Positions 1,632 through 38,109 of a DNA stretch of 44,710 nt are shown here, one piece after another. Source of the DNA: Candidatus Sulfopaludibacter sp. SbA3 (GTDB taxonomy: Bacteria; Acidobacteriota; Terriglobia; Bryobacterales; Bryobacteraceae). The stretch is from contig CAMDED010000054.1 of NCBI GenBank assembly GCA_945893365.1, positions 1-44,710 on the forward strand. Direction: 5' to 3'. Both the position numbers and the translations under genes were made by a program. Positions within the stretch are counted from its first letter, which is position 1, and every line of letters starts with the position of its first letter. Under the pieces are notes generated by a model. It did not search any database. It was not told the origin of the DNA and saw only the letters and a program-made list of their open reading frames with translations.

Positions 1632-1932
1632 AAAAAGACCGTGAAAACCGCTCCAGTTAACATATCACTGGCTGATCATAGCATGGGAATCCTCCCTCCG
1701 AATACGTTTTGGATGCGGAATAGTACGGAATAGTAATGGTCCCGGTGATGGGACTGCTAGCACCAAGGTCCGGTAGCGAAGTTGGTACTGGTAAGATTGC
1801 CAGCGTGCACCACTCCCGCAGATGCGAGTTTCCGCATGTGCCTTGCGCCCGCGGTCAGGGAGGCTGGGCTTCCGTCGTGCAAGAAAACGCCGCAGTGCAA
1901 TTGCGCCGTCCGCCGCGTTAAAATCGGGGACA
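1632..1932. other. Divergent intergenic region, no gene recognised
   Basis: About 300 bases separate the divergently transcribed kinase and TonB-receptor-like genes, so both promoters should lie here. A near-direct repeat of GGAATAGTA occurs around 1717-1735, and a short GTCCC/GGGAC inverted repeat around 1739-1754. Neither could be tied to a known regulator. Open frames that cross this region show no recognisable protein. Confidence 0.4.
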
Positions 1933-4539
1933 GTGAATTGTTACAGTTGTGTGTCGATCCTGATCCTGGCGGGCCTGTGCCAAGCCGAGGACGCGGTTGC
2001 GCCCAAACCCCCACCGGCCCCCGCTGCGGCGGAGGCGAAGCCGGACCAGCGGACCGATCTTAACCTGCTTGGCAAGACCGATACCGGATCCGGCGAGAGC
2101 CGGCGCAACGAAAACGTGCAGTTTAACCCTATTGATAACAATGCTTTAAAGGAACTTAACGTCCGCATGGGAACCACGGCGACGCTGGTCCAGGAATTCC
2201 AGGCCGACCGCGGCTACTTCAGCGCGGAGTTTGGAAATAAGCCTACGGCGCCGCCGCATCTGGCGGACGCCAAGTCCGCCGCCGGGGTCCACGGCAGCCT
2301 TTATGAAACGCACGGTAACTCCGTGTTTGGGGCGCGGTCGTTTTTTCAGGCTGGCGGCGTCAAGCCGGCGCGCGATAACGACTATGGTTTTGCGGTTGGC
2401 GCCAAGCCGTGGCGTGGCGGGTCGATCAGCATCGAAGGGAGCCAGCAGAAGATCCGCGGCAGCGTAAACGGCAACATTTTGGTTCCCCAGGCGGGCGAAC
2501 GGACTGCCCTCACGGCCGATCCGGCGGCGCGCGCCGTCGTCATGCGTTTCCTGAGCGCTTTTCCAAACGAGCTGCCTAACCGGACCGACATCGACGCGCG
2601 AGCGCTCAACACGAACGCACCGCAGCGCATCGATACGGACAACGGGGGCGTGCGGCTCGATCAGCGCCGCGGCGCGCGCGACCGCTTCACGCTTCAGTAT
2701 TCGTTCACCGGTCAGGTTGTAGACGCGTTCGAACTTCTGGCGGGGCAGAACCCCGATACGACGACGAAAGCGCATACGGCGCGCGCGACGTGGAGCCGCG
2801 CATGGTCGGCGAACACGGTCACCAACTTCACGGCTGGTTTCGACCGAACGCGGTCGCTGATCGTGCCGGAGCCGAATGCCGTCGGGCCGACTGTGACCTT
2901 CGGGAACGCCCTCGAAGGCCTCGGACCCGGGTCGGACCTCCCCATCGACCGCGCGCAGAACCGGTTCCGTTACGCGGGACAGGTCCGGCGCGTGCATGCA
3001 CGGCATTCGTGGACTGCCGGCGGGGAAACGGCACGGAGGCAAATCAACGGTTCCGAAATCAGTAGCCAACGGGGCGTTTTCTACTTCCGAAACGACTTTG
3101 GGCGGGATGCGATTACCAATTTCCGCATGGGCGTTCCGAGCCGCTTTTCGACGGGAATCGGTAGCTTTCACCGGGGCTTCCGGAACTGGGAGTACCAGTT
3201 TTATGCCGGGGATACGTGGCGCGCACGGCCGAATCTGACGCTCACCTATGGACTGCGATATCAGCCTGTGACCGGAGTCAAGGAAGTGAATGGCTTGACC
3301 CCAATTCCGTACGGCTGCGACTGCAACAACCTCGCGCCGCGCTTCGGTCTGGCCTATCGCCTGGGGGGACGAGGCGGCGTGCTGAGGGCAGCGTATGGGA
3401 CGGATTATGGAGAGATCTACCCCGTGACGTTTCAGCAACTGCGGTGGAATCCGCCGCTAGTTCTGAAGCTGGAGGTTCAGAGTCCGAACCTGGTGAATCC
3501 GCTGGGGAGCCTGGGTCCGGCAGATTTGCGTCCGGACGCGCGAAGCACTCTTTTCAATCTTTCCTCCAACCTGACGACGCCCTACTCGCACCAGTACAAT
3601 TTCATGTGGGAGCCGGCGCTCTCCCGCCGGTGGAAGATGCAATTCGGATACCTGGGCAGCCGCTCTCACAAACTGCTGATCTTCTGGCCGACCAACCGGG
3701 CGCAACCGGTCGCGGGCATCGAACAGACGACAGCCACCATCAACTTGCGGCGGCCGCGCACGGACCACTTCGAGATTCGCCGCATCCTGAACGGGTCGCA
3801 GGGCTACTACGACGCGGCGAGGGCGTCGCTGGCGCTGGCGAACTGGCACGGCCTGGATATGGACGCGGCGTACTGGTTCGGCAAGGCGATCGACCTTGGG
3901 GCCGCCTATACCAACACCGCGGCGGGCGAGGACGCCCTTCAGGCGCGAAGCCAATCCGAGTTCAATACGCAGCAGGACCTGAAAGGGCTCAGCCCGTTCG
4001 ACCAGACGCATTCGTTTCTGCTGCGCTTCGGCTATGTCACGCCGGCGCTGAAGGGGAAGGTCCGTGCGCTAGGCCGGTGGAATGTCTCCCTGGTAAACCT
4101 GGTAAAGAGCGGCGCACCGTTCGACGTGTTCTCGGGCTCCGACGGACCGGGGTATGGAAACGTGGACGGCGCGGCTGGCGACCGTCCGAATATTCTGGAC
4201 CCAGCAATTCTGGGGCGGACGATCGGCGACCCGGACACGTCGCGGGCGCTGCTACCGCGTTCGGCGTTCGGCTATATTCAACCGGTTGAACAGAGGGGAA
4301 ATCTGGGCCACAACGTTTTCCGCCGTGGAGGTATCCGGAACGTGAATGCAGCCATGTCGCGGAGTTGGACGTTCGGGGCGGAGAAGACTTTGACGTTCCG
4401 CGCCGAATCGATCAACCTGTCCAATACGCCGCAGTTTGCCGCGCCGGGCAAGGAGTTGTCGGCGCAGAACTTTGGACAGATTACCAATACGTTGAATGAC
4501 GGGCGGACATTCCGGTTCTTGCTGCGGCTGAGATTTTGA
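1933..4539 (+). CDS. TonB-dependent-receptor-like outer-membrane barrel lacking the usual N-terminal domain
   Basis: This 868-residue protein is predicted to be an outer-membrane beta-barrel of the large Acidobacteriota TonB-receptor group, probably importing a substrate too large for porins. The GTG at 1933 gives a short signal sequence (hydrophobic VSILILAGLC, cleavage likely after CQA). In-frame starts further upstream, from 1822, would add an arginine-rich lead unlike a signal peptide. The mature part begins Pro/Ala-rich. Barrel-type sequence with alternating aromatics follows, including YQFYAGDTWRARPNLTLTYG, a typical segment of this group, and the chain ends in RLRF, with the terminal Phe expected by the BAM machinery. 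Unlike the receptor at 20819-24331, it has no carboxypeptidase-regulatory-like domain, and its plug region is short. Whether it still transports anything is uncertain. Confidence 0.82.
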   Translation: MNCYSCVSILILAGLCQAEDAVAPKPPPAPAAAEAKPDQRTDLNLLGKTDTGSGESRRNENVQFNPIDNNALKELNVRMGTTATLVQEFQADRGYFSAEFGNKPTAPPHLADAKSAAGVHGSLYETHGNSVFGARSFFQAGGVKPARDNDYGFAVGAKPWRGGSISIEGSQQKIRGSVNGNILVPQAGERTALTADPAARAVVMRFLSAFPNELPNRTDIDARALNTNAPQRIDTDNGGVRLDQRRGARDRFTLQYSFTGQVVDAFELLAGQNPDTTTKAHTARATWSRAWSANTVTNFTAGFDRTRSLIVPEPNAVGPTVTFGNALEGLGPGSDLPIDRAQNRFRYAGQVRRVHARHSWTAGGETARRQINGSEISSQRGVFYFRNDFGRDAITNFRMGVPSRFSTGIGSFHRGFRNWEYQFYAGDTWRARPNLTLTYGLRYQPVTGVKEVNGLTPIPYGCDCNNLAPRFGLAYRLGGRGGVLRAAYGTDYGEIYPVTFQQLRWNPPLVLKLEVQSPNLVNPLGSLGPADLRPDARSTLFNLSSNLTTPYSHQYNFMWEPALSRRWKMQFGYLGSRSHKLLIFWPTNRAQPVAGIEQTTATINLRRPRTDHFEIRRILNGSQGYYDAARASLALANWHGLDMDAAYWFGKAIDLGAAYTNTAAGEDALQARSQSEFNTQQDLKGLSPFDQTHSFLLRFGYVTPALKGKVRALGRWNVSLVNLVKSGAPFDVFSGSDGPGYGNVDGAAGDRPNILDPAILGRTIGDPDTSRALLPRSAFGYIQPVEQRGNLGHNVFRRGGIRNVNAAMSRSWTFGAEKTLTFRAESINLSNTPQFAAPGKELSAQNFGQITNTLNDGRTFRFLLRLRF

Positions 4540-20818: not shown

Positions 20819-23800
20819 CTAGAACACGAAACGCGCCGCCAACTCGATGTTGCGGCCGCCCTGCTGCGGACCGGTTATCTGTCCGAAAAAGGGACTCGCA
20901 AGATCCGTTACCGGATTGCCGCGTCCCACCCGATTGAAGGGATTGAGGAAGGTTCCGCGGATTTCAAGCGAGCGCGTCTCGGCGAACTTGAAGGCCTTAA
21001 AGAGACCGAGATCCTCGCTCACGAAGTGCGGTCCTCGAATGTTCGGAAGCACCGGCCCCAGCGTGCCGATGCGACCCACGATGTTGTTGCCCGTCTTCGG
21101 CTGTTCGGCGAAGGCCGCCCGGTTGAGGTAGGTCGCACCGCCCGCAAACCCGCGGAAGGAGATCGGCGCATCGCTATTCGAAATGATCGGCTGGCCCGAG
21201 ACCAGATCCGGACGGATCGCTCCGTTGAAGATCGGTGAACTAATGTTCCCCGAACTGATCGAAAGGGGAGAACCGGAACGGAACTGGTGGTTGCCGGTGA
21301 CTTGCCAGCCGCCAAGAATCTTGCCCGCCACGCCGGGAACCCGCAGCAGACCCTTGTTGCCGATGGGCAGCTCGTAGATCCAGGTCAACTTGGCGTAGTG
21401 CGGGAAGCTGAAGCTGGTGATCGCCCGCTCAAGCCCCCGGTTGTAGACGTCCTGCGCGCCTTCCGCGTCGAAGACGTTGTCCGCGAACCCGATGGTCTTC
21501 GAGAACGTGTAGGCTGCCAGTACGGAGAAACCGCCCTTGAAATGGCGCGTATACTGCGCCTGAAGCGCGTTGTACGAGGAAGTGCCGAAGTAGGCCTGAT
21601 ACTGGCTGACGCCCGTGTACTGCGGGTATGGGCGGAGCGCCTGCCCCACGGTTCCGGCGAACCCGGCATAGGGAGACGGAACGCCGCTCGCGGCCGACCA
21701 CGGCTGAATAAGAAGATCGCCGCGGGAGAGCTCGCCGACTTGCAGCTGATTCAGATTGTCCAAGCCCCTGGCGGCCAGGCGCGTGCCCTTGTTGCCGATG
21801 TAGTTCAGTTCGAGAACCGAGGCTGCGGGCAACTGGATCTGGATTCCGAAATTCCAGTTTTGCACGTAGGGCACGCGGGTGGAATCTCGCGGGATGTAGG
21901 TGATGCCGGTGCCATTGGCGAGGGCGGGATTCTTGTTCGGCAGCGGCGTCGCCAGGTCCGGGAAGCGATCCTGCAGGTACATCACCGGATCGGAGGCGAA
22001 CTGCAACTGCGTGTTTCCGCTGTTGCGATTGATAGGCCCGCTATAACCGGTGGTGCCGCCAAATCCCGCGAAGTTGGTCGAGGGCGGGCTGTTGTTGATG
22101 CCGTAACCGCCGCGAATAACCATCTTTTCGGACATCGCGTAGGCGAAACCGAACTTGGGAGCGATCATCTTGTAATATGCGTCCTGGAAACCCTTGCGTC
22201 CCAGTTCGTCGGCGAACACCAGAGCGCCGGCGCGCCCTCCGGCCACCGCGTTCGGCACGAAGCCCAACGCCGACATGCGGCCCGCCACTTCATACATGCC
22301 GCCGATCACTTCCCAGCGCACGCCGAGATTGAGCGTCAGCTTGCGGTTCACCTTAAAGTCGTCGGCGAAATAGAACCCGGTCTGCTGCACGCGCCCGCCG
22401 AAATTGGCGGACTCAACCGTGCGGCTGGCGGTGTTGATGGCGCCCAGGAGGAAACTGGCGAAGGAGTGACCGGTTTGCGTGCGGAAGCCGGGCTGTTCGG
22501 TCTGGATATTCGAGAAGGCAAAGTCGCCCGAACCGGACTTGGTGCGCGAGTTCTGATAGTACTTGCGAACCTCGAAGCCCATCTTGAAATTGTGCTTAGA
22601 GCGAATCCAAGTCGCGTTGTCGGTGACGATGGTCGAGCCGTTGAAGCTGCCGCCGCGGCTGGCCGAACCGAGCCGTCCGCCCGCCCCGATGCCGCCGCCC
22701 TGATAAGGCGCGCCGGCGAAGGTTAGCGTTGGGAAGTGAGTCCCCGGAACGTTCTGCAAACCAATCTTGGAGGGCCAATCCTGATCGACGTACAGGCTTT
22801 CGTTCACGTTTCCGAAGCGGTTGTAGCCGAGAGCCAGGTGATTCAGCAGGCTGGGCGTCACCGTCCAATCATAGGAGATGCGCACCATCGTGCCAGGCGT
22901 GTTCTGAAGCTGGTAGACGTTTGTGGGCGATCCGGGAGGCGCACCCCACCGGCCGCCCGGGGAGTTGTTCCGTTGCCGGAAATTGCGGTTGAACATCCCG
23001 TAGACCTTGTGATTGGCCGAAATCTGGTGATCGAGCCGGACGGTCAGCATGGTTTCGTCGAAATTGGGGCAGCACGTGCCGATCGCCGGCATGTTGTTCA
23101 GCATCTGGTCGAACAACGGATTGTCGATCGGCGCGAGCTCCAGGATCTTCGAGCTGACGGGGCTAAAGCGGTTGCGAGGGACAATGTTGCCCGGGAACAC
23201 GTCGCGCACGGCGGTTCCATTTACCAGGCGCGTCGTGGACGGATCGTAAATCGCTCCGAAGACCACAGGGCGTCCGGCCGCATCGGTTCCCGCACTCGCT
23301 CCCGATCCCGCATTACCCGTGAATGCGCGGTCCAGAAGCCGGGCGAAATTACCAGCCTTGAAATCCGTCGTGGGTAGCTGCGTAAAACTCGTCGAGCGGA
23401 AGTCGCGGACACGGGTCTTCTCCAGGTTATGGAAGAAGAACGTGCGGTTCTTGCCGTTGTAAACTTTGGGCAACAGCACGGGACCGCCGACGGAGTAGCC
23501 ATAGTTGTGTTGCTTGAAGGGCTGACGTTTGATGCCAGCGGCGTTGTTGCCCCAGCCGTTCGCCCTTAACGCATCGTTCTGCACGTAGTAGTAAGCCGTT
23601 CCGTGGAAGTCGTTACCGCCACTCTTGGTGGCGAAGTTGGCGACCGATGTCTGGCCGCCGGTATACTCCGCGCCGACCGTTCCGGTCTGCATCTTGAATT
23701 CCGAGACGCTCTCGGCCGAGGGGCTGAACTCGTTGTTCGATCCGCCCTGCAGGTCCCAGCGTCCGAGCGCGATGCCGTCGATCAGAATTTCGTGCGAGTA

Positions 23801-24331
23801 GTTCTGTCCGCCATTGATAGACCCGAGGAAGGTTCCGCCCACGGTGCCCGGCAACGAGGTAAACATGAACTGCTGAATCTGCCGCCGTCCGTCGCCCACC
23901 GTGATGGGCCAGGTGTCGAACTCCTTCTTCGATACGTAGGAGCCGATCTCCGCAGTGCCCGTTTCGAGCAGCGGCGGGTCCGAGGAGATGGTCACCGAAT
24001 CCGACACCGCGCCGACTTCAAGCCTGAAATCCACCGTCAAGGTCTGAGCGACCGAGAGGTTCACATTGTCGCGCACCGCGCCCTTGAAGCCGGGCACGCT
24101 GACCAGGATGCGATACGTGCCTGGGATAAGGTACGGGATGCGATAAACACCGGCATCCGTAGTGTTGGCGACGCTTTCAACGTTCGTGGCGAGGTTTACC
24201 GCCTTTACGGACGCACCGCCGATGACGAGGCTCGACGGGTCCGAAACGGTTCCGTTCAGGGTACCGCGTTCGCCTTGGGCGAACAGGCAGGTGGCCGCTA
24301 AAAGGCCAGCGAGAAGCAAACGTGTCTTCAT
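20819..24331 (-). CDS. TonB-dependent receptor with N-terminal carboxypeptidase-regulatory-like domain
   Basis: This 1170-residue outer-membrane receptor should bring in a large nutrient, probably a glycan, peptide or chelate, using TonB energy. After a signal peptide (KTRLLLAGLLAATCLFAQG) comes a carboxypeptidase-regulatory-like beta-sandwich (about residues 20-105: GTLNGTVSDPSSLVIGGASV, YRIPYLIPGTYRILVSVPGF). A plug-type region follows (EILIDGIALGRWDLQGGSN, SESVSEFKMQTGTVGAEY-like sequence), then a long barrel with SGGNDFHGTAYYYVQND and KLTLNLGVRWEVIGGM, ending in ELAARFVF with a terminal Phe. The ATG at 24331 is preferred over an upstream in-frame start because GGAG lies just before it. 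It leads an operon with the TPR protein. No substrate-specific neighbours are present. Confidence 0.9.
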   Translation of the reverse strand: MKTRLLLAGLLAATCLFAQGERGTLNGTVSDPSSLVIGGASVKAVNLATNVESVANTTDAGVYRIPYLIPGTYRILVSVPGFKGAVRDNVNLSVAQTLTVDFRLEVGAVSDSVTISSDPPLLETGTAEIGSYVSKKEFDTWPITVGDGRRQIQQFMFTSLPGTVGGTFLGSINGGQNYSHEILIDGIALGRWDLQGGSNNEFSPSAESVSEFKMQTGTVGAEYTGGQTSVANFATKSGGNDFHGTAYYYVQNDALRANGWGNNAAGIKRQPFKQHNYGYSVGGPVLLPKVYNGKNRTFFFHNLEKTRVRDFRSTSFTQLPTTDFKAGNFARLLDRAFTGNAGSGASAGTDAAGRPVVFGAIYDPSTTRLVNGTAVRDVFPGNIVPRNRFSPVSSKILELAPIDNPLFDQMLNNMPAIGTCCPNFDETMLTVRLDHQISANHKVYGMFNRNFRQRNNSPGGRWGAPPGSPTNVYQLQNTPGTMVRISYDWTVTPSLLNHLALGYNRFGNVNESLYVDQDWPSKIGLQNVPGTHFPTLTFAGAPYQGGGIGAGGRLGSASRGGSFNGSTIVTDNATWIRSKHNFKMGFEVRKYYQNSRTKSGSGDFAFSNIQTEQPGFRTQTGHSFASFLLGAINTASRTVESANFGGRVQQTGFYFADDFKVNRKLTLNLGVRWEVIGGMYEVAGRMSALGFVPNAVAGGRAGALVFADELGRKGFQDAYYKMIAPKFGFAYAMSEKMVIRGGYGINNSPPSTNFAGFGGTTGYSGPINRNSGNTQLQFASDPVMYLQDRFPDLATPLPNKNPALANGTGITYIPRDSTRVPYVQNWNFGIQIQLPAASVLELNYIGNKGTRLAARGLDNLNQLQVGELSRGDLLIQPWSAASGVPSPYAGFAGTVGQALRPYPQYTGVSQYQAYFGTSSYNALQAQYTRHFKGGFSVLAAYTFSKTIGFADNVFDAEGAQDVYNRGLERAITSFSFPHYAKLTWIYELPIGNKGLLRVPGVAGKILGGWQVTGNHQFRSGSPLSISSGNISSPIFNGAIRPDLVSGQPIISNSDAPISFRGFAGGATYLNRAAFAEQPKTGNNIVGRIGTLGPVLPNIRGPHFVSEDLGLFKAFKFAETRSLEIRGTFLNPFNRVGRGNPVTDLASPFFGQITGPQQGGRNIELAARFVF

Positions 24332-24388
24332 TTCAACTCCAGTATTCAAGATTAACAACCCCTTTTGGCAGGCAGCTCGCGCCGCCAT

Positions 24389-28364: not shown

Positions 28365-30986
28365 GTGACCCTCTCCGCTGGAACCAGACTTGGGCCTTAC
28401 GAGATCCTCTCGCCTATCGGAGCGGGAGGCATGGGGGAAGTCTGGAAAGCCCGCGATACTCGCCTCGACCGCACCGTGGCGATCAAGGTCTCGACCGCCC
28501 GCTTCAGCGAGCGCTTCGCAAGGGAAGCCCGCACCGTAGCCTCCCTCAACCACCCGCACATCTGTACGCTGCTGGACGTCGGCCCCGATTACCTTGTTAT
28601 GGAGTTCCTGGAGGGTAAGCCCCTCGCCGGACCGCTGCCGCTCGAGGAAGGCCTGCGCTTCGCCATCCAGATCGCCGAGGCTCTCGACGCCGCCCACCGC
28701 AAGAGCGTCGTCCACCGCGACATCAAGCCCGCCAACATCCTGGTCACCAAGAACGGCGTCAAGCTGCTCGACTTCGGCCTGGCCAAGATCACACGCGAGC
28801 TCGGGTCCGCCGACACCACGGTGACCATGGCGCTGACGCAGGAGAATACCATCCTCGGCACGCTGCAATATATGGCTCCGGAGCAGATGCAAGGGGAAGA
28901 GGCGGACGCGCGCAGCGATATTTTCTCTTTCGGGTGCGTGCTCTACGAGATGTTCACGGGCAAACACGCGTTCGAAGGCGCGAACGCCGCCAGCTTGATC
29001 GCCGCAGTGCTGACCACGGAGCCGCCTTCGCTCGCTTCGACGGAGCCGGTATTGCCCGCGGCGCTCGATCACCTGATCGCTACCTGCCTGGCGAAAGATC
29101 CGGAAGAGCGGCGCCAGACCGCGCACGACGTACTCCTCGACCTGCGATGGCTGGCGAGCGCACAGGGTCACGCGGCGGTCTCGCTCTCGACGGCGGCTCC
29201 GCATTCGCGCCGGCCGCTTGTGGCGCTGGCTGCCGCAGCGGCGCTGTTCTTCCTCTCGACGCTGGCGCTCGCCTGGTTGCGTTGGGGCGCAACGCCCGCC
29301 GCGACGCCCATTGTCCGATTTACGATCGATCCTTCGTCCAAGACCCAATTCTCCGCAACCCGCTTCGGAGCGGCCGAGATCTCACCGGACGGGTCGCGTC
29401 TCGCGTTCATTACTAGTACCACGGGGACGATAGGAATCCGGAGTCTGGATTCGACCGAGGTTCGCCTCCTCCCTGGCACCGAAGGAGCGGGTTATCCGTT
29501 CTGGTCCGGGGACAGTCGCCGTCTCGGTTTCTTCGCGGACGGCAAGTTGAAGCGGGTCGCCATTGACGGCGGACCTCCGCGTATTCTCTGCGATGCGCCA
29601 AACGGCCGCGGTGGGACCTGGCACGGTGGGGCCGATGGCGTCATCGTATTCGCCGCCACCAATACCCAAGGTCTTTCGCGCATCCCGGCCGGGGGCGGCG
29701 AACCGGCCGCGGTGACGGCCCTCGATCCATCACGCCGCGAGTTTTCGCACCGCGTCCCCCACTTCCTGCCCGATGGACGCCGCTTTCTGTATGTCGCCGC
29801 CAGCCAGGAGCCCGGGAAGAGCCGCATTATGGTGGGAGAGTTGACCACGGGCACAGCCAAACCATCGCCGGGCGAGGGCAAGGAGTTGATGAACGGCGAT
29901 TCCGAGGCGCGCTGGGCTCCTCCCGGATATCTGCTGCTCGTGCGCGAGCGCAACCTGATCGCGCACCCTTTCAATTCCGCGCGACTCGAGTTCACGGGTG
30001 AACCGGTACCGGTGGCGGAAAACGTCGATACGGGGGGCAATCGCCATACAGCGGCGTTTTCCGCGTCCGGAAGCGGCGCCCTCATCTATCGCCACGCCGA
30101 GGCTCCATTGCCCACCCGCATGGCGTGGCTCGACCGTCAGGGCAACGAAATAGAGCGGATTCCGGCAGGCGAAAACATAGCCATTTCCAGCCTGTCCGCC
30201 GACGGCAAGATGGCAGCTGGCCAAAAGCCCACAGCCAACGGCGAGACCGACCTGTGGCTGATCGACCTGGTTCGCGCCACCGCCTCGCGATTCACCTTTG
30301 AAGCCGGCGCCGAGAACTCCGGCGTCTTGTCGCCGGATGGCAAGCGAATCGTATACAGCGCCGAGCGTGGACCGGGCTTCGATCTGTTTCTGAATGACGC
30401 CGGGGGACTTGGCGCGCCCGAGCCGCTCGTCGAGTCCGCCCTCGCGAAATTCGCGTCCGATTGGTCGAATGACGGCGAATGGATACTTTACTCGGAATCG
30501 GCGTCGGGGGGAACGTCGAACAGGAGTATTTGGGCTTTGCCTGTAACCCGCGGCCGCAAACCCGTGGAATTGGTGTCGGCCCGATTCTATAACCTCGGAG
30601 CCAAAATGTCGCCCGACGGCCGCTATTTCGCCTATGGATCAAACGAATCCGGCCGAAGCGAAGTGTATGTGCGTACTTTCTCTCCCGAATTACCGGCGGC
30701 CGGCAGCAAGTGGCAAATCTCGACCGCGGGCGGCTCGGCCCCCCATTGGCGGCGCGATGGCAAGGAGCTGTACTACACCGGCGGCGGCAAGGTCATGGCA
30801 GTACCTATAAAAGCAGGTCCCGTTTTCCAGGCCGGAACTGCTGCCGCGCTGTTCGATTTGCGCGGCTCGGTATCGGCTCGCCCGGATGGCGAGCGCTTCC
30901 TGGCGGCGATCCCGTTGCAGGCCCAGACGCAGGAACCGCTGCAGGCCGTTCTGAACTGGACCGCAGCCTTGCCGAAGCCCAGGTAG
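28365..30986 (+). CDS. Membrane Ser/Thr protein kinase with WD40/TolB-like propeller
   Basis: This 873-residue protein has a Hanks-type kinase domain at residues 11-265: glycine loop GAGGMGEVW, Lys41 in [13 protein letters not shown] (Asp119), DFGLA (Asp136) and an APEQ motif. All catalytic residues are present, so it should be active. The loop between Lys41 and helix C is short, as in many Acidobacteriota kinases. A transmembrane helix (about 284-306) leads to an outer domain of repeated PD40/TolB-like blades ([42 protein letters not shown]), presumably a periplasmic sensor propeller. It starts with GTG at 28365. A kinase relic lies just upstream. The signal and targets are unknown. Confidence 0.9.
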
Positions 30987-32303: not shown

Positions 32304-32774
32304 CTATTGGTTAAGCTCGTGGCAGGCGTTGCACGTAAGGTTCGCGTCGCGGGATCTGTGACAATCGACGCAGGCCTTCATGGTGAGGGGAAATTCGCGG
32401 GTAAGCGTCTCGCGCTCCATCACGGAACTATGGCACTGGGCGCAATCGATACGCGCGGCCCGGTGCTTCGCATGGCTGAAGAAGACGAAGTCGGCGAGCC
32501 GGTAAACCCGCGTCTGAGGAAAAGGCTTCGCGTCCTTCGGCAGCGCCGCCAACGGCTGAATCGCGGCGCTCCCCTTCCTTATCTCGCGGTGGCACAGCAT
32601 GCACTTTGCGGCGGCGGGAAATCCCGCGCGCTCCGCGGAACCCGAGTGGCACTCAGTGCAGTTCATCCGTGTTTCCGCATGGCGCTTGTGGCTGAAGCGG
32701 AGCGGCTCAGCCGCGGCCGGTACGCCTAGGGCAGCGAGTAAGCAATAAGCGTATCTGAGTAGGCCTTGTTGTAT
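32304..32774 (-). CDS. Pentahaem c3-like cytochrome without a canonical start codon
   Basis: The protein (about 156 residues from the suggested start) has five CxxCH haem sites: CTECH, CMLCH, CAQCH, CVDCH and CNACH. Two of them are preceded by FSH-x-x-H stretches (RFSHKRHAE and FFSHAKHRA) that supply the second haem ligand, as in small c3/c7 cytochromes. A signal-peptide-like front (LLRYAYCLLAALGVPAAAE) precedes them. No ATG, GTG or TTG occurs in this frame between the far-upstream shadow of the neighbouring gene and the signal peptide. The best placed codon is ATA at 32774, six bases after a GGAGGGGG sequence. It overlaps the 3' end of the PQQ dehydrogenase by 49 bases, suggesting coupled translation. 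It would carry electrons from the quinoprotein (inference). Confidence 0.78.
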   Translation of the reverse strand: MQQGLLRYAYCLLAALGVPAAAEPLRFSHKRHAETRMNCTECHSGSAERAGFPAAAKCMLCHREIRKGSAAIQPLAALPKDAKPFPQTRVYRLADFVFFSHAKHRAARIDCAQCHSSVMERETLTREFPLTMKACVDCHRSRDANLTCNACHELNQ

Positions 32775-34582
32775 TTGTTTCCCCCTCCGGAGGCGATTAC
32801 GACGAACTGCTTGCCGGATTTCCGGCTCATGAACGTCATGGGCGTCGCGTGCGCGCTCGCGGGCAAACGCACGGTCCAGATTTCCTTTCCGGTTGCCTTG
32901 TCGAAAGCGCGGAAGCGGCTGTCGTTCGTCGCGCCGATGAAGAGGAGGCCGCCGGCGGTCACGATGGACCCTCCCAGGTTCGAAGTGCCCGTGGGCGGAA
33001 TTCCCTTCTCGATCAACTCGTCGATCACGCCGAGCGTGGAGCGCCAACGAAACTCGCCCTTATCGAGATCGATGGCGGTAAGATGGCCCCACGGAGGCTG
33101 CTGGCACGGATGAAGATTCGGATCCCAGAAGCGCTGTTGGCCGACGCTCTGCGTCCGGTACGGGATCTTCGAACCCTCCGGGCGCGGGATCATGCGCAGC
33201 ACCATTCCGTTGTCATGGGAGTTCACGTAGAGCGTGTGCGTTTCAGGGTCCCACGATGCCCCGCCCCAATTCGCGCCGCCGTTCGTTCCCGGAAACAGCA
33301 CGGTCGGCTTGAGCCCGATCGGCGTGTAGAGCGAGCCAAAGACCGCGCCTTCGAGGATCTTCGCACAGTAGGCACGGGACTCGGGCGTCACGTTCGTGAG
33401 CTCTTCGGGCCGCATGGTCTGGCGGGCGTAGGGCGGCGGTTTCACCGGACGCGGTTGCGTGGGAAAAGCCTTCTCGCCGGGAACTTCGCTCGCCGGCACG
33501 GGCACTTCTTCGATATCGAAAAGCGGCTTGCCTGTGACGCGATCGAACAGAAAGGTGTAACCGGTCTTCGTAACTTGAGCGACCGCGGCCACGGGTTTGC
33601 CGTTGCGGGTGACGGTGACGAGCGTGGGCGCGGCGGGAATATCATAGTCCCAGATATTGTGGTGGACGGTCTGGAAATGCCAGAGCCGCTTGCCCGTCGA
33701 GGCGTCGAGCGCGACGAGCGAATCGCCGAAGAGATTGGATCCTTTCCGGTCGCCGCCATACATGTCGGTCCCGGGCGAAGTGAGGGGCAGAAAAACGATG
33801 CCGCGTTCGGTGTCGACGGTAAGGATCGACCAGGCATTGGCGGCGGAGCGATCCTTCCAGGAATCGCCTTCCCATGTGTCGTGTCCGAACTCGCCGGGCC
33901 GCGGGATCACATGGAAACGCCAGACGAGCTTGCCGGTGCGGGCGTCGAAGGCGCGGACATCGCCGCTCGGTCCCTGCGGCTCGCCATCGGCGGTGAGCGC
34001 GCCGCAGATGACGAGGTTCTTGTAAACGGCGGGCGGCGAGGTCATGCCGTAGCCCTTGTCCGGATACCGGTCGGCGACGCCTTCGCGCAGGTCGATCCAG
34101 CCGGCCTTGCCGAAGCTGTCATCCGGTTTGCCGGTTTTCGCATCAAGCGAAAAGAGCCGGCCATCGAGGGTGCCGGAAAAGATGCGCTTTCCGCCGACGC
34201 CCGGCCAATAGGCCGCGCCGCGATTGATGAACAGGTTGTAGGTACGCTCGCGATTGAGCTTTGGGTCGAACTGCCAAAGCTCTTTACCCGTTTCCGCCTC
34301 GAGTGCGATTACCCGAGAGAACGGTGTGGTGAAATACATGACGCCATCGATTACCAGGGGCGTGGTCTCGAACGCGCTGCGGGTCGCAATGGTCTTGCCG
34401 TCGCTGATATCGCCGGTGTGATAGGACCAGGCGATCTTGAGCTTTGCGACGTTCGAGCGGTCGATCTGCTTGAGCGGGGAGTAGCGGGTTTGACCCGCGT
34501 CGCCGCCGTACACGGGCCATTCCTGTGCGCAGCCGGGATTGGCGAAGCTCGGAAGAAGGAGGATCGCGAGTGCGTGTTTCAT
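32726..34582 (-). CDS. Secreted PQQ-dependent dehydrogenase (quinoprotein, glucose/alcohol type)
   Basis: This 618-residue protein has a signal peptide (MKHALAILLLPSFANPGCAQ) and an eight-bladed propeller pattern: EWPVYGGDAGQTRYSPLKQI, KIAWSYHTGD, ALEAETGKELWQFDPKLN, SLDAKTGKPDDSFG, VALDASTGKRLWHFQT, NWGGASWDPETHTLYVNSHD and FDKATGKEIWTVRLP, typical of PQQ enzymes that oxidise sugars or alcohols in the periplasm. The ATG at 34582 begins the signal peptide; a longer frame to 34681 lacks that character. Its last 49 bases overlap the pentahaem cytochrome gene, a likely electron acceptor. No PQQ synthesis genes are in the window. The substrate is unknown, though the opening motif is closest to the membrane-type glucose dehydrogenase family. 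Confidence 0.88.
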   Translation of the reverse strand: MKHALAILLLPSFANPGCAQEWPVYGGDAGQTRYSPLKQIDRSNVAKLKIAWSYHTGDISDGKTIATRSAFETTPLVIDGVMYFTTPFSRVIALEAETGKELWQFDPKLNRERTYNLFINRGAAYWPGVGGKRIFSGTLDGRLFSLDAKTGKPDDSFGKAGWIDLREGVADRYPDKGYGMTSPPAVYKNLVICGALTADGEPQGPSGDVRAFDARTGKLVWRFHVIPRPGEFGHDTWEGDSWKDRSAANAWSILTVDTERGIVFLPLTSPGTDMYGGDRKGSNLFGDSLVALDASTGKRLWHFQTVHHNIWDYDIPAAPTLVTVTRNGKPVAAVAQVTKTGYTFLFDRVTGKPLFDIEEVPVPASEVPGEKAFPTQPRPVKPPPYARQTMRPEELTNVTPESRAYCAKILEGAVFGSLYTPIGLKPTVLFPGTNGGANWGGASWDPETHTLYVNSHDNGMVLRMIPRPEGSKIPYRTQSVGQQRFWDPNLHPCQQPPWGHLTAIDLDKGEFRWRSTLGVIDELIEKGIPPTGTSNLGGSIVTAGGLLFIGATNDSRFRAFDKATGKEIWTVRLPASAHATPMTFMSRKSGKQFVVIASGGGNKYNKAYSDTLIAYSLP

Positions 34583-36423: not shown

Positions 36424-38109
36424 ATGCCGATTCGCGCCTTGTGGTTCCTCACCCTCGGTCTCGCCGTTCCGGATCTGCGCGCCGCCGTGCATTCAGACTT
36501 GGTCTACGCCAGGGCTGGCGGCAAAGACTTGCAGCTTGATTTGTACTTACCGGAAGCTTCGTCGAACGGGCGCTTTCCCGTGGTGGTCTGGATACATGGC
36601 GGAGCGTGGCAGAGCGGCTCGAAAGAGAAACCTCCCGCGGCCCGCCTCACGGCGCGCGGTTACGCGGTCGCGAACATCAACTACCGGCTTAGCGCCGAAG
36701 CGCAGTTCCCCGCCCCGCTCCACGATGCGAAAGCCGCCGTGCGCTGGCTGCGCGCCAATGCCGCGGAGTATGGACTCGATCCGGGACGCTTCGCGGCCTG
36801 GGGGTCTTCGGCCGGCGGGCATCTCGCCGCTCTGCTCGGGACCTCGGGCGGCGTGCCTGCGCTCGAAGGTCCGCTCGGCAATCTGAACCGTCCCAGCCGC
36901 GTCCAGGCTGTAATCGACTTCTTCGGACCGACCGATTTCCTCAAGATGGACGCCGCCGGGAGCAAGATGAATCACGACGCGCCGGATTCGCCCGAATCCA
37001 GGCTCATCGGCGGGCCGATTCAGCAGAATGCGGAGAAAGCGGCGCGCGCGAACCCAATCACTTATGTCAGCCCGGACGATCCGGCCTTCCTCATCATGCA
37101 CGGAGACAAAGATCCACTCGTTCCTCACGATCAAAGCCGCTTGCTTCATGAAGCGTTGAAGAAAGCCGGCGTCGAGGCGTCGTTCGAAACCGTCAAGGAC
37201 GCGGGACACGGATTCAGCGGACCGGAGATCGACCGCGCCGTCGATGCGTTTCCGGACACACATCTCAAAGCCCCCGCCGCGTCCGATTCCGGGGCGTGGG
37301 CCGACCCGGACAAGTCCGAACCGGAGGGTACGAAATACCGCACCTTCCACAGCAAGACGATCAAGGGCGATGTTAGTTACCTGATCTACCTTCCGCCGGG
37401 GTATGAGACGGATCGAAGCCGGCGTTATCCGGTGGTTTACTGGCTGCATGGACTGGGCGGAAATCAGCGAGGGGGAGCGCCGTTCGTCAGTCTACTGGAC
37501 CGGGCGATCAGGGCCAATCGGACGCCGCCCGCAATCGCCGTGCTCGTCAACGGTCTGCGGGACAGCCGGTATTGCGATTCATGGGACGGCGAGCGGCCCG
37601 TCGACAGCGTCGTGGTGCGCGATTTGATTCCGCACATCGACTCCACGTGGCGTACCCTTGCGCGCCGCGAGTTCCGCGCCATTGAAGGCTATTCGATGGG
37701 CGGGTTCGGCGCTGCGCATTTCGGATTCAAGTATCCGGAATTATTCGGGGCCGTCTCCATCATGGCGGGCGCGCTGCTCGACCGGGACAGCGTCACGTAC
37801 CTGCACGGAGAGCTGTTCGAAAGGAATTTTGGCGGAGATCTGGATTACTTCGACGAAAACAGCCCCTGGATCCTCGCGGAAAGGAACGCGGACAAGATTC
37901 GCGGCCGCATGAGCGTGAGGATCGGCGTGGGCGAGCGGGACGGCCTGCTGGAGCGCAACCGTAATTTTCATGGGCTCCTCGAACGGCTGAAGATCGAGCA
38001 TGAATACTTCACAGTGCCCGGCGTAGGGCACAGCGGGAAAGTGTTTTACGAGACGCTCGGCACGGAACGCGTGTTCGGGTTCTATAAGACGGTATTCCGC
38101 GTCCCCTGA
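36424..38109 (+). CDS. Two-domain secreted esterase (two alpha/beta hydrolases in one chain)
   Basis: This 561-residue protein has a signal peptide (MPIRALWFLTLGLAVPDLRA) and two complete alpha/beta hydrolase domains. The first (about residues 25-280) has the oxyanion motif WIHGGAW and catalytic candidates Ser129 (GSSAGG), Asp230 (HGDKDPLVP) and His262 (DAGHGF), like carboxylesterases of the BD-FAE/hormone-sensitive-lipase side. The second (about 300-560) has YWLHGLGG, Ser424 (GYSMGG), Asp506 (GERDG) and His536 (GVGHSG), like CE1/esterase-D type acyl esterases. Both triads look intact. The pairing suggests removal of two kinds of acyl or feruloyl/acetyl groups from a plant or microbial polymer, and the neighbouring sugar-binding protein fits this (inference). 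It begins 33 bases after that gene. Confidence 0.85.
   Translation: MPIRALWFLTLGLAVPDLRAAVHSDLVYARAGGKDLQLDLYLPEASSNGRFPVVVWIHGGAWQSGSKEKPPAARLTARGYAVANINYRLSAEAQFPAPLHDAKAAVRWLRANAAEYGLDPGRFAAWGSSAGGHLAALLGTSGGVPALEGPLGNLNRPSRVQAVIDFFGPTDFLKMDAAGSKMNHDAPDSPESRLIGGPIQQNAEKAARANPITYVSPDDPAFLIMHGDKDPLVPHDQSRLLHEALKKAGVEASFETVKDAGHGFSGPEIDRAVDAFPDTHLKAPAASDSGAWADPDKSEPEGTKYRTFHSKTIKGDVSYLIYLPPGYETDRSRRYPVVYWLHGLGGNQRGGAPFVSLLDRAIRANRTPPAIAVLVNGLRDSRYCDSWDGERPVDSVVVRDLIPHIDSTWRTLARREFRAIEGYSMGGFGAAHFGFKYPELFGAVSIMAGALLDRDSVTYLHGELFERNFGGDLDYFDENSPWILAERNADKIRGRMSVRIGVGERDGLLERNRNFHGLLERLKIEHEYFTVPGVGHSGKVFYETLGTERVFGFYKTVFRVP

Follow-up and report, generated by a model that had tools for sequence, protein, structure and literature searches.

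Within the window, the whole 44,710-nt stretch of DNA analysed here, a pentahaem c-type cytochrome gene overlaps the gene for a PQQ dehydrogenase and has no ATG, GTG or TTG near the start of its signal peptide. We put the probability at about 85% that this gene encodes a functional cytochrome, likely the electron partner of the dehydrogenase, and that its translation starts at an AUA codon. This reading is drawn from sequence comparison. The initial annotation had placed three explanations side by side, namely a rare AUA start, a start that had been lost and a frameshift product of the two genes. The rare AUA start was strongly supported by a conserved ATA, by a Shine-Dalgarno (SD)-like GGAGG and by a signal peptide encoded in the -1 frame.

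The cytochrome frame runs from 32774 to 32304 on the minus strand and reads IQQGLLRYAYCLLAALGVPAAA followed by EP..., five CxxCH motifs and a stop codon. The signal peptide IQQGLLRYAYCLLAALGVPAAA occupies 32709–32774, with cleavage after AAA assigned by eye, and the mature pentahaem cytochrome c domain, which is ActA/QrcA-like, fills 32304–32708 together with the stop codon. The five haem sites are CTECH (32646–32660), CMLCH (32589–32603), CAQCH (32430–32444), CVDCH (32358–32372) and CNACH (32319–32333), all on the minus strand, and both they and the signal peptide were as legible in this frame as first annotated. The dehydrogenase, a beta-propeller protein encoded at 32726–34582 on the same strand, ends with a TAG at 32728–32726, which gives an overlap of 49 nt (32726–32774) if the cytochrome starts with the ATA at 32774. 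Within the overlap the dehydrogenase C-terminus, from Lys606/Tyr607 to the stop, is read in frame 0 and the cytochrome signal peptide in frame -1. On the coding strand the junction is GGA GGG GGA AAC AAA TAC, which the dehydrogenase reads as Gly-Gly-Gly-Asn-Lys-Tyr and the -1 frame reads as CAA-ATA-CAA. The SD-like element GGAGGGGG (32788–32781, minus strand) was placed by sequence and codon comparison in the three glycine codons Gly602-604. Six bases, AAACAA, separate it from the proposed start (32774–32772, minus strand), which was assigned from the sequence and its comparison and is made up of the third base of the Lys606 codon and the first two of the Tyr607 codon. The position of the ATA and its distance from GGAGGGGG had been given in the same way by the initial annotation. 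The absence of an ordinary start near the signal peptide also held, as the open frame before it contains a single ATG, GTG or TTG, namely the TTG 91 codons upstream at 33047, and the next one downstream of the ATA is codon 37, beyond the signal peptide.

Both proteins belong to recognizable families. The dehydrogenase scored 731.9 bits against the PQQ propeller model PF01011 (cut-off 26.7) and stayed below the cut-offs of the NCBIfam sub-families. Its start is likely the ATG at 34582, behind which a signal-peptide-like stretch was seen by eye. Its top PDB matches include the quinohaemoprotein alcohol dehydrogenases 1yiq, 1kv9 and 1kb0, in which a PQQ propeller passes electrons to haem c. The likeness lies in the PQQ propeller; in those enzymes the haem sits in an in-frame C-terminal domain, whereas in the window the haems are carried by a separate, overlapping pentahaem gene. 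The cytochrome matched c7/c3-type haem models in the profile search, and its best PDB match was 6btm_A, subunit A of alternative complex III (E 2.6e-23). It shares CxxCH haem sites with ActA of alternative complex III and with QrcA-type multihaem cytochromes, but unlike the QrcA type it scored 61.2 bits against NCBIfam QrcA (NF041781), under the curated cut-off of 180, and comes after a PQQ dehydrogenase, of which it is likely the electron partner. All five CxxCH sites were present in 13 of 13 aligned cytochromes. Outside the overlap the cytochrome is under purifying selection, with a dN/dS of 0.10–0.23 in nine of ten pairs, dS being saturated in the tenth and leaving nine computable. Elsewhere in the window, the frame at 28365–30986 (+) encodes a Ser/Thr protein kinase whose C-terminal portion carries a PD40 (WD40-like) beta-propeller repeat, a single reading frame at 36424–38109 (+) joins a BD-FAE-type alpha/beta hydrolase to a second putative esterase domain, and the frames at 1822–4539 (+) and 20819–24388 (-) each encode a large outer-membrane beta-barrel protein belonging to PF25183 (OMP_b-brl_4).

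Comparison of the junction with related genomes, which the initial annotation had proposed as a check, was carried out in the family of the window's genome (G000), a Bryobacteraceae-like family of Acidobacteriota. A whole-genome search found close forms of the cytochrome in two genomes of the same genus (80–82% identity) and in further genera of the family. We then searched 237 family genomes with a cytochrome profile and with a dehydrogenase profile; the latter, at E ≤ 1e-240, gave 80 rows in 72 of the 237 genomes, and three rows without the C-terminus were left out. Altogether 82 loci were examined, and 76 remained after removal of two with the dehydrogenase running off the contig end and four without a dehydrogenase tail. 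These comprised 24 start-less -1 overlaps, nine loci with a neighbouring cytochrome in another arrangement and 43 in which no separate cytochrome was found. Among the 24 start-less junctions, 22 have ATA (13 genera, one family) and two have GTA (one genus). All 24 place the cytochrome in the -1 frame, and the overlap of the ATA junctions is 49 nt in 21 cases and 46 nt in one, so the overlap described for the window recurs in its relatives. Since 22 of the 24 start-less overlaps keep the ATA, the start-less junction is, on this comparison, neither chance nor an assembly slip. Those cytochromes that were examined without the overlap have ATG, GTG or TTG candidates before the signal peptide. Profile searches at E ≤ 1e-49 in 257 genomes of the order and 399 genomes of the class, the latter drawn from a larger group, matched two genomes outside the family. 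One of them (G121) is arranged differently, with its cytochrome in the +1 frame, TTG candidates and an AAG codon, and in the other (G128) GTG and TTG candidates stand before the signal peptide. Distant overlap cases may be missed by this search, because the threshold is not reached by four overlap members of the family itself (G014, G070, G259 and G261) and the class was covered by a draw of 399 genomes.

As the overlap is dual-coded, the choice among synonymous dehydrogenase codons shows what the second reading requires. Lys606 is AAA in 21 of 21 dehydrogenases with the overlap and in 13 of 31 without it, and at 11 other conserved lysine columns of the same overlap genes AAA was used in 4–9 of 18–21 cases (21–50%). 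An AAG at this position would convert the AUA to GUA. Gly602 is GGA or GGG in 21 of 21 overlap genes compared to 10 of 31 genes without the overlap, and it ranked first for this choice among 48 conserved glycine columns (median 0.33), with Gly603 ranking second. A GG[AG]GG (GGAGG or GGGGG) stands 6–9 nt before the ATA in 22 of 22 ATA junctions and in neither of the two GTA junctions; two genomes (G002 and G015) have G-runs only and no GGAGG. An SD-core match of at least 5 was found in 19 of 21 overlap dehydrogenases versus 6 of 31 without the overlap.

The codon counts were also evaluated on the dehydrogenase tree under a two-state model whose rates had been fitted to the other columns. The probability that all 21 genes would carry the observed codon was 3e-9 for AAA and 2e-7 for GGA/GGG on this tree, which is a quick one with SH-aLRT support only and 12 of 51 inner branches open. 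When the GTA pair was counted, the probability of at least 21 of 23 was 2e-7 for AAA and 1e-5 for GGA/GGG, and at quartered rates it was 2e-4 and 0.03. A sister-pair test for AAA gave 2.4 pairs in the same direction and 0.8 in the opposite direction out of 5, and was underpowered. One ATA junction (G033 C40) was left out of the tree and the 21-row tests because its dehydrogenase consists of the tail only, and G256c was left out of the tree and the codon tests because its reading ended early. Taken as sequence evidence, the codon choice at the junction shows selection for initiation, and the comparison indicates that the SD-like element, the AUA and the signal peptide are each kept by selection.

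The same comparison shows why the codon would be AUA and not AUG. The GGGNKY motif of the dehydrogenase is dual-coded, with the glycine codons spelling the SD and the lysine AAA supplying the A of AUA. Tyr607 is encoded by TAC in 24 of 24 junctions, and the tyrosine is invariant among 11 dehydrogenases. An AUG, GUG or UUG would need the tyrosine codon to become TGN, so a Lys-Tyr pair (AAR TAY) leaves AUA and GUA as the sole options, of which AUA is the closer to AUG. As in other conserved bacterial AUA starts, the AUA is conserved and is preceded at a short distance by a strong SD. A usable AUG, GUG or UUG is strictly lacking in 11 of the 22 ATA genomes.

Two sets of loci depart from the common pattern. 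The GTA pair, L198 (G261 C527) and L201 (G259 C528) of genus g5, came out of the survey and was separated from the other loci only later; the statistics above are also given with the pair included. Both loci have the overlap, the -1 signal peptide and an intact cytochrome (dN/dS 0.10), with GTA in place of ATA and no GG[AG]GG. Both also have an open ATG 35 codons upstream, formed via different leucine codons (CTA and TTA). The simplest reading of these sequences, made post hoc and for one lineage, would be that g5 shifted its start upstream; GUA initiation in the two genomes is possible. The second departure is L051 (G033 C40:35876-39500), in which the upstream dehydrogenase match covers only residues 557–620 and the tail is altered (GGGSKYDINSDALVSSSLP), possibly through misassembly. 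The GGAGG, the ATA, the signal peptide and the cytochrome are retained there, and an upstream GTG is also open. A full dehydrogenase of this genome lies on another contig (G033 C14), and no cytochrome was found beside it. All other ATA junctions come after a dehydrogenase.

If the cytochrome did not begin at the AUA, it could begin at an NTG 34–35 codons upstream and carry a long N-terminal extension before the signal peptide. Of the 22 ATA genomes, 10 have an open ATG, GTG or TTG at -34/-35, and both GTA genomes have an ATG; at the place concerned an ATG occurs in two of two GTA rows, compared to none of 31 rows without the overlap and 2 of the 20 ATA rows that have the tryptophan from whose codon (TGG) the NTG arises. 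This tryptophan makes the NTG a by-product of the dehydrogenase, because all 31 dehydrogenases that lack the overlap likewise have GTG, TTG or CTG there. As a general start the -34/-35 NTG was rejected, since 11 of the 22 ATA genomes either lack it or have it blocked and since it also occurs where there is no overlap. These 11 genomes have no open upstream ATG, GTG or TTG at all, one of them (G008) having an in-frame TAA two codons ahead of the ATA, and the one remaining genome, G000, offers nothing but the TTG at -91. The TTG at 33047 was rejected as a start in its own right, since the frame closes 48–49 codons upstream in two relatives of the same genus. Within codons 2–12 of the cytochrome no ATG, GTG or TTG was found in any of the 24 overlap junctions. 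An upstream start would furthermore leave the fixed AAA and the GGAGG beside the ATA unexplained. The initial annotation had named a conserved upstream start in relatives as the finding that would overturn it, and the relatives did not bear it out, with 11 of 22 ATA genomes lacking any such codon and 10 having one at the tryptophan place, where an NTG stands in dehydrogenases without the overlap too. We consider an upstream start to be improbable for these loci, and as a general rule it is contradicted by the genomes in which no such start is open.

A programmed -1 frameshift, in which ribosomes slip near GGGNKY and produce a dehydrogenase-cytochrome fusion, would also account for the cytochrome being in the -1 frame in all 24 junctions. 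The classical slippery heptamer G GGA AAC stands in phase in G000 and G002, and in-frame fusions of such a dehydrogenase with such a haem domain occur elsewhere. However, only 5 of 24 junctions hold an in-phase X XXY YYZ heptamer in the zone from the last -1 stop to the dehydrogenase stop, and the other 19, including G008, hold none. Apart from the two G GGA AAC, four further heptamers, each of another kind, were seen once each, G002 carrying one of these as well, so no conserved slippery site was seen (any heptamer 5/24, G GGA AAC 2/24) and the frameshift was rejected on this count. The -1 frame itself points the same way. The -1 reading of the tail has a mean Kyte-Doolittle hydropathy of 1.79 in overlap rows versus 0.08 in rows without the overlap, and a charge or stop occurs in it in 1 of 21 overlap rows versus 23 of 31 without. 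Most frames run on, as judged by eye, into A-x-A-like cleavage regions once the dehydrogenase has ended and dual coding has ceased. A fusion made through this signal peptide should misplace the haem domain, whereas the natural in-frame fusions of PQQ dehydrogenases with multihaem domains (L203, L206, L207, L081, L084, L085, L105 and L114, eight lines of which L206/L085 and L207/L084 are identical pairs, leaving six distinct) use hydrophilic linkers. Three of these, L203, L206 and L207, are counted among the 43 loci without a separate cytochrome. A hydrophobic -1 reading set against hydrophilic fusion linkers fits a -1 frame that is retained as a predicted export signal, and thus a separate protein rather than a fusion. 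Moreover, the junction of G033 C40, if this contig is correctly assembled, is retained with only dehydrogenase residues 557–620 ahead of it. Together, the scarce heptamers, the hydrophilic linkers and the G033 C40 junction disfavour the frameshift product suggested by the initial annotation, and we regard it as very improbable. Its other suggestion, a lost start that would make the gene a decaying or mis-assembled remnant, is the hardest of all to credit. The gene has no standard start codon and the genomes are mostly draft assemblies, which would be in keeping with such a loss, but the identical junction is found in 22 genomes of 13 genera, the five CxxCH sites are intact in 13 of 13 aligned cytochromes, dN/dS is 0.10–0.23, and the codons at the junction are themselves under selection. 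A start-less junction kept over 13 genera with a selected cytochrome is not what decay would leave.

Initiation at the AUA could proceed as follows. The glycine codons would spell the SD (GGAGG/GGGGG), and the lysine AAA would set the AUA, in the -1 frame, 6–9 nt downstream of it. Decoding of the AUA would fall to the ordinary CAU initiator tRNA through near-cognate pairing, with the SD as its anchor, and initiation would presumably be weaker than at AUG. Ribosomes engaged on the dehydrogenase, or terminating 46 nt further on, may assist, either because they unfold the site or because they move back to it; this help is suggested by the start lying 46 nt before the dehydrogenase stop. The two genes overlap on the same strand, as coupled pairs do (49 nt in 21 of 22 cases, 46 nt in one), and translational coupling from the dehydrogenase is plausible on the basis of this layout. 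The predicted mean unpaired probability of the SD core was 0.30 compared to 0.43 for the whole stretch over the 24 junctions, with very uneven values between genomes. The core is thus on average more paired than its surroundings, which is at most a hint of a specific RNA structure or of a dependence of cytochrome translation on that of the dehydrogenase.

In G000 the one match to the pattern GGGCTCATAACCC is a CAU tRNA-Met with a GGG/CCC anticodon stem (ARAGORN), and such a stem is a mark of the initiator tRNA, for which this tRNA is a candidate. The pattern was matched in 17 of 21 genomes and, searched as an exact pattern, had no match in G001 and G002 (86% and 73% complete). A CTTATAA form occurred once in G003 and once in G123. 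An altered initiator tRNA was rejected, given that the G000 match is a CAU tRNA-Met and that the CTTATAA site of G003 holds no tRNA. IF3 is present. The anti-SD sequence CCTCC was seen in 6 of the 21 genomes; in the remaining 15, among them G000, it was not found.

The closest known parallels are in Staphylococcus aureus, where AUA is reported as the start codon of infC, ccpN and citZ and an extended SD is predicted in the case of infC and ccpN (PMC13009471). Reporters with the AUA of ccpN and citZ reached about 10% of the AUG level, and that of ccpN up to 30% in rich medium (PMC13009471); the weak AUA/AUU starts of infC, ccpN and cvfC1 are described there as anchored by an extended SD. An AUA and a strong preceding SD are thus shared between the S. 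aureus AUA/AUU starts (infC, ccpN, citZ, cvfC1; PMC13009471) and the window locus. There, mutation to AUG was feasible and raised the yield, whereas the AUA in the window sits in conserved Lys-Tyr codons that bar AUG. The overprinted signal peptide is a feature of the window locus and not of the S. aureus cases as that source describes them, and the start in the window is a proposed one, drawn from sequence comparison. For coupling, the coat/lysis pair of phage MS2 offers a likeness, as there and in the window the downstream start lies about 46–50 nt before the upstream stop in another frame, making both pairs candidates for coupling. MS2 is a small RNA phage and its lysis gene has an ordinary start codon, whereas the window holds a bacterial gene pair with an AUA and a local SD. 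At the -50 nt spacing of MS2 coat/lysis the unfolding model is considered the likelier one (PMC12548453), and coupling is described as declining with larger overlaps, with none at -25 nt in one study cited in the same paper (PMC12548453), which speaks against coupling at the window locus. AUA starts as such are already known; a dual-coded AUA start at which AUG is forbidden looks new. Neither an AUA start inside a bacterial overlap nor this locus was seen in the titles and abstract openings of the open-licence literature searched.

On the dehydrogenase tree the 23 overlap rows are scattered and require at least 11 changes. One old gain followed by repeated loss of the cytochrome appears likelier than independent gains, because the identical 49-nt overlap with the same SD and AUA would otherwise have to arise many times. 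As a tentative scenario, for which we would offer somewhat less than even odds, the junction may be a frozen accident. Early in the family a cytochrome would have lost its own start and signal peptide and acquired both from the dehydrogenase tail read in the -1 frame, where Lys-Tyr left AUA as the best start, held ever since. Cytochrome output would then follow translation of the dehydrogenase in a constant, low proportion, comparable to MS2 coat/lysis, and where the AUA was lost an upstream AUG would have taken over.

Gene finders restricted to ATG, GTG and TTG will truncate, extend or miss genes of this kind, and the signatures in the dual-coded codons are usable to search for further cases. 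The locus offers a clean, testable case for the ways in which SD strength and overlap may rescue a weak start, and the cause of the AUA is visible in the sequence, where the codons of the upstream protein exclude AUG. Since AUA starts are rarely documented in bacteria, one that has been kept for so long in this family would be evidence that a near-cognate start can serve as the functioning start of a gene under selection.
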